From assembly GCF_016841685.1 (NCBI RefSeq), contig NZ_JAENYR010000003.1, positions 1 through 64,000 of the forward strand: a DNA stretch of 64,000 nucleotides, given 5' to 3'. Shown here piece after piece: positions 13,481 through 49,884 of this stretch (its first letter is position 1; each line of letters opens with the position of its first letter). This stretch comes from Thiohalomonas denitrificans (GTDB lineage Bacteria; Pseudomonadota; Gammaproteobacteria; Thiohalomonadales; Thiohalomonadaceae). The notes beneath the pieces were generated by a model, which worked only from the letters and a program-made list of their open reading frames with translations, was not told the origin of the DNA and searched no databases. The position numbers and the translations under genes are program-made.

Positions 13481-13633
13481 AACGGGCTGCTTTCGTAGGG
13501 TATTTCGTCGTAAAGACTTACCGCTCCAGAAAAGTAGGCAGTTGCCCTGAAGACAGAGATGGGGGCGGTTACCCCAACTGGCAAGTCCAGCCAGGTTCGG
13601 GAGTATCGCGTCTCGACGGGGTCTCGCAGATTG

Positions 13634-16867: not shown

Positions 16868-16973
16868 GGGTTTTTTTCCTGGCTAAGAAGAGAAGCGCGT
16901 GTTCGTCGCAGCGTGCAAGAGCTGAAAGTCTGTCTGGAAGCGTTTGCTCCGGTCAAGGATTAGGCCTGTAAAG

Positions 16974-17242
16974 ATAGCAACCGCATACATTTGGTGACGA
17001 ACCCGGAATCAGGGACCACTACAGGGATAAAAGATGATGCAGGAGCATCGTCTTTCATCCCTGTAGGCTGGACGGCAGCATCCCTCGAAGACTGCTCACT
17101 TGACAATACGCTCCATGCACTGTCTACCACCGCCTTGCATGGCGGTGTGCATTGTTCTACCTCCTGCATCCATGCAGTCGTGCTGCCGACGACCCGATAT
17201 CGAGCACTTGCATCACTCGTCTCAAAGTATGCGGTTGGCCTG
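16974..17242 (+). mobile_element. Foldback/MITE-like element, copy A (most diverged)
   Basis: Ends agcaaccgcatac...agtatgcggttggcc are inverted repeats; the inner region matches copies B and C (gatgcaggagcatcgtctttcatcc, ggacggcagcatccctcga, caccgcc..ggcggtg, gtgctgccgacgacc). Confidence 0.75.
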
Positions 17243-46123: not shown

Positions 46124-46210
46124 CGGGGTGGGGAGATTTCCGTTGCTTGAAAAAGAGGGATACAGTACCAAATTATGGGTTACGACCGCCAGCGAGCGGG
46201 TGAGACAAGC

Positions 46211-46471
46211 AGGGTAAACGCATACTCACATTTTTTGATGCCGGCGAGCGAACTGAGTCCTTGTAGCAGGTACGCTGTGAATACGACCTACAGGGATGCA
46301 GGAAGCGAAGATTATGCAGGAGCAATCATCTTTCATCCGTGTACACTCGACGGCAGCATCCCTCGACAAGTGGGCTCCTGCATTGTCTGACACCGCCGTC
46401 CGTGGCGGCGTGCTGCCGACGACCTGCTATCAAGGACTTACACCGCTCGTTTTTAAGGATGCGGTTGCCCT
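46211..46471 (+). mobile_element. Foldback/MITE-like element, copy B
   Basis: agggtaaacgcatactcac...aaggatgcggttgccct inverted ends; subterminal tccttgtagcaggtacg versus ctgctatcaaggactta inverted; flanks tgagacaag/tgaggcaag. Confidence 0.85.
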
Positions 46472-46568
46472 GATGAGGCAAGGTGAGTGAACCTCTAGCC
46501 TTCGATCGTAGGACGTGGAAGAGGCAGAAGCCGCGAACCGATCACGGCTCAGACTTGGGGATAATCGC

Positions 46569-48059: not shown

Positions 48060-48626
48060 ATGAGCATCAAGTGCGACAAGTGGATCCGCCGCATGGCGGC
48101 AGAGCAGGGCATGATCGAGCCGTTCGAGGCCGGTCAGGTCCGGGAGGTGAACGGTAACCGGATCGTTTCCTACGGAACTTCCAGTTACGGCTATGACGTG
48201 CGCTGTGCCGATGAATTCAAGATCTTCACGAATATCAACTCGGCGATTGTCGATCCGAAAGGATTCGACGAGTCCAGCTTCGTCGACGTGAAGTCGGACG
48301 TCTGCATTATCCCGCCCAACTCCTTCGCACTGGCCCGCACGGTGGAGTATTTCCGCATTCCACGCAGCGTACTGACCATTTGCCTCGGTAAGTCGACCTA
48401 TGCGCGCTGCGGCATCATCGTCAACGTAACGCCATTGGAACCCGAGTGGCAGGGGCATGTGACCCTGGAATTCTCCAATACCACGCCGCTGCCGGCCAAG
48501 ATCTACGCCAACGAGGGCATTGCGCAGATGCTGTTTCTCGAATCGGATGAAGTATGCGAGACCTCCTACCTGGATCGAGGCGGCAAATACCAGGGACAGC
48601 GCGGTGTAACGCTGCCCGTCACCTGA
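48060..48626 (+). CDS. dcd: dCTP deaminase
   Basis: [28 protein letters not shown]...[22 protein letters not shown]...[52 protein letters not shown]. Confidence 0.96.
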
Positions 48627-48647: not shown

Positions 48648-48748
48648 ACTTCTATAAATTCGTCATTCCCGCGAAAGCGGGAATCCAGCCATTGATTTAC
48701 TGGGCTCCCGCTTTCGCGGGAGTGACAAAAAATGAATTTTTAGAGGTT
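48648..48748. repeat. Palindromic intergenic element with paired CCCGCGAAAGCGGG hairpins
   Basis: cttctataaattcgtcattcccgcgaaagcgggaatccag...ctgggctcccgctttcgcgggagtgacaaaaaatgaatttttagagg forms an overall ~100 bp inverted repeat. Confidence 0.8.
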
Positions 48749-48770: not shown

Positions 48771-49511
48771 TTATTCCTGGCGTTCCAGTTTGGTGATATA
48801 ACTGGTGGCCGTGTAATCCTTCTTTTCCTGGACGAGCTGTACCAGCGTGTAGTCGAGCGCCGGAGCAACCCAGAGGGTGACATCCTCCCTTTGGACCTTC
48901 AGTGTCTGATAGGTACCGAGAGGGGTCTCCAACTGCTCCTGCCCGATCACATCGAACCGATAGGTCTTGATCTCTCCCCGATCGGCGAAGGTGTACTCGA
49001 GGTGCTTCTCCCCCTCCGAGAGGTCGCGCTCAAGTGCGACCTGGTATAGCAGCTTGTCGAGAATCCCCGGTCGCACGGCCACCTTCGTCTCTTTACCTTC
49101 GCGGAGATAGGTGACGACCTCTTCCTTCCAGTCGAAGCGCATGCGCTCGACAGAGTCGTCATTGCCGCCCGTGTGTTTCGCCTGAAAGTCCAGGGGGATG
49201 AGGGTGCTATTCTGAGAGCGCCAAAGGCTCCTTTCGGTAAGTCGGTGATCCTTGAAAAGGGCAACCAGCCCTGTGGTGTAGAGCGATGACTCCATCAACC
49301 AGGTATCGTCGGGGCGCTTCTCGAGTTTGCGGGTCATTTCGCCAACCTTGAGTCCGTTGGCATGAACCGTGTACAGGGCCTCGTAGGGCTCGGGCGCATA
49401 AGTGGGCTTGGCCCCGGCGGGACTCGCCAGCAGTGCCACCAACAGAGCCGTCGTCAAAGCAAAATATGCCACGTTCAGGGTCAACTCCCATTTGAGGTCC
49501 AACTCGGGTTG
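48771..49511 (-). CDS. DUF3108 domain-containing periplasmic protein
   Basis: Signal-like LNVAYFALTTALLVALLASPAGA; YTVHANGLKVGEMTRKLEKRPDDTWLMESSLYTTGLVALFKDHRLTERSLWR. True start uncertain: the long ORF reads into the MITE (ORF to 49718). Confidence 0.75.
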   Translation of the reverse strand, partial: QPELDLKWELTLNVAYFALTTALLVALLASPAGAKPTYAPEPYEALYTVHANGLKVGEMTRKLEKRPDDTWLMESSLYTTGLVALFKDHRLTERSLWRSQNSTLIPLDFQAKHTGGNDDSVERMRFDWKEEVVTYLREGKETKVAVRPGILDKLLYQVALERDLSEGEKHLEYTFADRGEIKTYRFDVIGQEQLETPLGTYQTLKVQREDVTLWVAPALDYTLVQLVQEKKDYTATSYITKLERQE

Positions 49512-49517
49512 TATCAC

Positions 49518-49790
49518 AGGGTAACCGCATACTCCCACTTTTGATGCCGGCGAGCGAACCAAGTCCTTGATAGCCGGTACGCTCTGAATACGACCTACAG
49601 GGATGTAGGAAGTGAAGATTTTGCAGGAGCGATCATCTTTCATCCGTGTACGCTCGACGGCAATATCCCTCGACAAGTGTGCTCCTGCATTGTCGAACAC
49701 CGCCATTCCCATTCCCATTCCCGGCGGCGTGCTGCCGACGACCTGCTATCAAGGACTTACACCGCTCGCTTCAAAGTATGAGGTTGCCCT
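49518..49790 (+). mobile_element. Foldback/MITE-like element, copy C, with 12 bp target-site duplication
   Basis: AGGGTAACCGCATACT...AGTATGAGGTTGCCCT ends; direct repeat GGGTTGTATCAC at 49506-49517 and 49791-49802. Confidence 0.92.
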
Positions 49791-49884
49791 GGGTTGTATC
49801 ACATCTCCGACAACCCGTCCGGTATTTAGGCTACGGGTTCATGAATGGTTCCGATTCGGCCGTAGATTATCCTGCCGGTCGCTG

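Follow-up and report, generated by a model that had tools for sequence, protein, structure and literature searches.

Related mobile repeats

The YPAL/RU-2 repeat of Yersinia pestis, a copy of which is printed in PMC2759123, is intergenic, recently mobile as judged by empty-site comparison and expressed with upstream genes (PMC2229807). It inserts beside dyad symmetries and is bounded by duplications of 3-26 bp (PMC2229807). The RUP element of Streptococcus pneumoniae and other MITEs that share IS ends are non-autonomous, with termini that resemble the ends of a resident IS (PMC2229807), while the Correia/NEMIS and ERIC repeats are short, structured and mobile and can alter mRNA stability if transcribed (PMC2229807). 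Insertion sequences of the ISAs1 family, ISRm21 among them, have CAGGG ends and generate 10-bp duplications, and the TwoAYGGAY and CsrA-sponge RNAs contain paired GGA-loop hairpins for which CsrA binding has been proposed (PMC4333381).

The element described here, copy C, lies in a window of 64,000 nucleotides from Thiohalomonas denitrificans (contig NZ_JAENYR010000003.1, positions 1 to 64,000) and resembles each of these systems in part. Its core shares with YPAL/RU-2 a three-way junction, the same apical consensus and an intergenic, multi-copy, mobile character, whereas YPAL is without ISAs1-type ends and its duplications vary in length. Because the MITE has CAGGG ends and fixed 10-bp duplications, it is described as carrying a YPAL-like core and is not filed as YPAL. 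It has the end motif and duplication length of the ISAs1 insertion sequences, with similar terminal sequences (ISRm21, CAGGGCTATCGCATAT), but contains no transposase and has only its ends in common with the resident ISAs1 copy. RUP is likewise non-autonomous but is driven by IS630 and targets TA, and a YPAL-like core is not known in it. Correia/NEMIS and ERIC, which share the short structured mobile form, are set apart by description through their TA termini and another target pattern. TwoAYGGAY (RF01731), similar to the core in its paired GGA loops, gave no Rfam match even at E 10. The element is assigned with high confidence to the ISAs1-type MITEs with a YPAL-like core, and the combination of such ends with such a core is new.

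Bounds of copy C and its family in the genome

Copy C occupies the gap between purN and the DUF3108 gene, both on the minus strand, and is short, with 17-bp ends and no transposase-sized ORF inside (Table 1). A sequence-only reading had described a 273-bp element whose inverted ends match at 14/16 positions and which is flanked by a perfect 12-bp duplication. The inverted ends are present where that reading placed them and the element is real, but comparison of copies shifts both termini one base outward, to CAGGG...CCCTG, giving 275 bp. Both copies of the 12-bp GGGTTGTATCAC are also there (49506-49517 and 49791-49802), but the true duplication is the 10-bp GGTTGTATCA; the repeat appears longer because the terminal C and G of copy C equal the adjoining bases by chance. 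The length of 275 bp rather than 263 bp is due to a CCATTC expansion that is absent from other copies.

Table 1. Copies of the MITE in the window and the parts of copy C
Feature	Positions	Strand	Remarks
MITE copy C	49517..49791	+	CAGGG...CCCTG, 275 bp; bounds from copy comparison and 10-bp duplications
Left target duplication GGTTGTATCA	49507..49516	+	copy C
Right target duplication GGTTGTATCA	49792..49801	+	copy C
Left terminal inverted repeat CAGGGTAACCGCATACT	49517..49533	+	copy C
Right terminal inverted repeat	49775..49791	-	family consensus CAGGGCAACCGCATACTTT, equal to IS end at 19/19
Left arm of subterminal inverted repeat (core outer stem)	49550..49578	+	partner 49741-49769; stem covaries
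YPAL-like structured core	49555..49763	-	covariance model R1, 48.9 bits, E 3.3e-10; GGA loops interrupted
CCATTC tandem expansion	49703..49722	+	copy alignment; only in copy C
Second complete copy, 263 bp	46210..46472	+	between metG and Mrp-like gene; decayed duplication, 8/10
Core of second copy	46249-46444	-	YPAL-like core match
Third copy, diverged, 270 bp	16973..17242	+	duplication gone
Right-end remnant of a further copy	13505..13549	+	left edge approximate

The genome, a draft of 3.79 Mb in 160 contigs, contains many related copies. The 16-bp end has 127 matches at no more than 2 mismatches, compared with 3 for a reversed-pattern control, and the MITE returns 56 blastn matches; the ends amount to about 60 copies' worth. 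The family consensus ends are CAGGGTAAACGCATACT and CAGGGCAACCGCATACT, bounded by CAGGG...CCCTG, and the copies fall into nested size classes of about 263, about 213, 165 and 46-95 bp (about 60 bp), the ~213-bp class comprising two kinds that each lack a different internal block. Perfect 10-bp duplications flank 18 of 45 candidate end pairs and at least 9/10 positions agree in 22 of the 45, against 1/1980 in a control in which flanks were exchanged between copies; a further two of the 45 fit a 9-bp duplication and two an 11-bp one. At C8:19222-19562 a 165-bp copy lies directly behind a 166-bp copy, and the duplication GGCTGCCCTG of the former is the last 10 bp of the latter. Relative to gene orientation, 7 of the family's own copies are co-directional and 3 are against, small numbers without clear bias, and a spanning-ORF count was uninformative about intergenic preference at this G+C. 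The MITE was not found in the plasmids searched.

Fold and identity of the core

Copy C has the core on its minus strand, as a long outer stem and two apical hairpins that meet in a three-way junction. Across 16 sequences, 93.7% of paired cells hold standard pairs (31-43% in slid-alignment controls, which span 31-44% over both alignments) and 20 of the 40 pairs have changed on both sides. For 27 copies from other gammaproteobacterial genomes the corresponding values are 95.1% and 35 of 40, in an alignment (A3) fitted to the covariance model, which biases both pairing and loop invariance upward. Invariant columns are concentrated in the linker and in the two apical loops, each CANGGANG. The motif is nearly invariant in both loops of 70 copies, in which the N positions and the stems are variable, but this invariance is inflated, since the copies were found with a model that already included the loops. 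Paired hairpins with ANGGA loops are seen in other genomes and in the 165-bp class; in copy C and the rest of the 263/275-bp class, inserts interrupt both. Since the size classes differ in their internal inserts, an RNAalifold consensus over a mixture of them was poor. Further genera of the host family also contain the inner part of the MITE; CAGGG-type ends bound several of these copies, and a duplication can be recognised in some (L136, L140).

The printed YPAL/RU-2 sequence (PMC2759123) folds into a junction of the same type as the core and contains the apical consensus TCGAGCCTACANGGANGTATTNACGGCGT with 0 mismatches, where the best of 20000 shuffles has 6. The comparison links the Yersinia YPAL repeat, which Rfam lists among Yersinia sRNAs, with a wider gammaproteobacterial core, and points to a MITE family that carries a homolog of YPAL, with its three-way junction, between transposon ends. 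An Rfam search of the element returned no family at gathering score; the best match, Ysr224 (RF02770), was weaker and on the opposite strand, at 37.8 bits against a gathering score of 70. The many miRNA matches in Rfam were rejected as plain long-hairpin likeness. Ysr224 itself appears to be the core of a YPAL-like repeat; it is among the most prevalent bacterial sRNAs (PMC9029176), which may reflect repeat copies.

Distribution of the core

In a class-wide sample of 274 gammaproteobacterial genomes the covariance model finds matches in 45, many of these genomes with at least 15 each, and it finds 40 places in the element's own genome. The core was absent from the phages and from the E. coli genomes searched, and on plasmids only one place, in Shewanella aestuarii, was convincing. 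In other genomes the stems of the core are extended or its outer inverted repeats differ (e.g., L161/L197/L198 and L163/L201-L203), which suggests that several MITE families have been built round one YPAL-like core. The core sits on ISAs1-type ends in the host lineage and, in other Gammaproteobacteria, has extended stems alone or lies within other inverted ends. Roughly one sampled gammaproteobacterial genome in six has this core, which can ride on different transposon ends; this breadth is the part most worth following, and a partial search of the literature found no report of a wider YPAL distribution. The outer repeats at L161, L197 and L198, at L163 and L201-L203, and at L164 and L206 are TCATCTAA..TTAGATGA, ACTAA..TTAGT and AGTTCCGAATA..TATTCGGAAC, respectively.

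Position relative to genes and possible roles of the core

Among the 70 copies in other genomes, most tandem neighbours lie on the other strand from the GGA loops (29 vs 8, p 7.5e-4), and the neighbour 3′ of that strand presents its stop-codon end in 44/63 cases at a median of 53 bp, with neighbours called from ORF length alone and copies within one genome not independent. This position at 3′ ends fits insertion at terminators, as in YPAL, or a role at the 3′ ends of mRNAs. Two explanations of the core may be weighed, both of which concern function only and are compatible with an ISAs1-type MITE that carries a YPAL-like core.

The first, which is a reasonable candidate though it falls short of being the expected outcome, places the function at the DNA level, where some recombinase or nuclease would recognise the apex of the hairpin in YPAL movement and the position just after stop codons would follow from insertion near terminators. 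It draws on the frequency with which right neighbours present their 3′ ends, on the mobility of YPALs and their insertion beside dyad symmetries with duplications of varied length (PMC2229807), and on the presence of the same core inside elements with different ends. Against it, the recombinase is hypothetical, and a DNA-level role alone leaves the very strong fixation of the GGA loops unexplained.

The paired CANGGANG loops resemble the consensus of CsrA/RsmA sites. In such sites GGA lies in the loop of a short hairpin, and the hairpins generally come in pairs (PMC4383904, PMC4333381), and csrA is present in the genome. The second explanation, on this basis, is a mobile CsrA/RsmA-binding RNA whose loops serve as a sponge or as sites within mRNAs, so that the loops are selected while the stems drift, in agreement with the near-invariant loops and variable stems of the 70 copies. 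It is unlikely, as the neighbours lie mostly opposite to the GGA strand and read-through mRNA would mostly contain the complement, the strand on which Rfam has modelled Ysr224. In addition, the loop invariance is inflated by a model that contains the loops, and both loops are interrupted in the 263/275-bp class. The broader proposal of a class-wide gammaproteobacterial structured element, probably an RNA with a paired-GGA platform of CsrA type, repeatedly captured by unrelated transposon ends and spreading as a mobile regulatory module, is similarly doubtful.

In copy C the core lies in the purN-DUF3108 gap and, given that gene order, would form part of a transcript, where a long stable hairpin could affect mRNA processing or stability. 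As the loops are fixed and the stems covary freely, the function of the core is open to direct test.

An ISAs1-family insertion sequence as the likely driver

The search for a full IS with matching ends, which the sequence-only reading had proposed, identified one near-full ISAs1-family copy in the genome (L084:446-1738, contig C8; 1293 bp), which terminates in CAGGGCAACCGCATACTTT and CAGGGCAAGATCGTACT and is flanked by a duplication, ATCGTTAATG, matching at 10/10 positions. Its transposase, divided over two reading frames, scores 280 bits against NF033564 (cut-off 70) and contains the Pfam domains DDE_Tnp_1_assoc and DDE_Tnp_1; no intact ISAs1 transposase was seen in the draft assembly. The right end of the MITE is identical to one end of this IS over 19/19 bp and its other end matches the other IS end at about 13/17. 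A relative of the IS in a MAG of another gammaproteobacterium keeps the same two end types. As likeness between the IS and the MITE is limited to the ends, an origin of the MITE by plain internal deletion of the resident IS was rejected. The annotated ISAs1 controls (ISRm21 at two sites and one copy on a Citrobacter plasmid) have CAGGG ends and 10-bp duplications in 3/3 cases, so that the MITEs, the resident IS and all three annotated copies agree in a duplication length of 10 bp. From these similarities in sequence, the autonomous partner of the MITE is likely to be an ISAs1-family IS.

The sequence-only reading had tentatively suggested an IS4-like transposase that makes 12-bp duplications, which is now very improbable. 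The suggestion took its appeal from the seeming 12-bp repeat around copy C, and the DDE_Tnp_1 domain is indeed common to ISAs1 and IS4 transposases; however, the IS whose ends match is placed by its score in ISAs1, a family separate from IS4 despite that domain, and the other copies of the MITE have duplications of 10 bp, not 12. An IS4-family MITE was therefore rejected, as 12-bp duplications do not extend across the copies, and the driver is placed in ISAs1 rather than IS4 because three annotated ISAs1 copies share the CAGGG ends and 10-bp duplications. A DDE transposase of the ISAs1 family, encoded at present or in the past by an IS that shares the CAGGGYAANCGCATACT ends, would recognise the MITE ends and act on them in trans, and staggered cuts at insertion would give rise to the 10-bp target duplication. 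A likely driver is hereby named, and the duplication length corrected, for a large MITE family; no report of an ISAs1-driven MITE was found in a partial search of the literature.

Two arrangements in the genome bring MITE and IS sequences together. A 59-bp element with MITE-type ends adjoins the ISAs1 IS in L084, with target sequence common to both, and three near-identical 10-bp targets lie between and around the two (L084:377-1738), as if one site had been used. At L085:886-1442 (contig C134), a decayed ISAs1 fragment, 91-92% identical to the full copy, runs straight into the right half of a MITE.

An empty site in a congener

The DUF3108-purN-purM block is syntenic in a congener (G001), in which the purN-DUF3108 gap is without the element and keeps a single copy of the target, GGTTGTAACA (L121, contig C7), between flanks that can be aligned on both sides. 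The empty site anticipated by the sequence-only reading thus exists, and its view of copy C as a non-autonomous MITE placed by transposition is borne out by the multi-copy ends, the 10-bp duplications and this site. Copy C is a real transposition product, an ISAs1-type MITE with a 10-bp duplication; that its inverted ends and duplication arose by chance in an ordinary intergenic region is contradicted by the copy number, by the many copies with duplications and by the empty site, and has a negligible probability. A search of the congener for ISAs1 gave no match, though MITE copies are present there; like the split reading frame of the resident transposase, this counts against an ISAs1 driver.

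Another short palindromic repeat in the window (48661-48735; CGTCATTCCCGCGAAAGCGGGAATCCAG ... GCTTTCGCGGGAGTGAC) is unrelated to the MITE. It lies downstream of a gene that ends near 48626 and attracts spurious Rfam miRNA matches.
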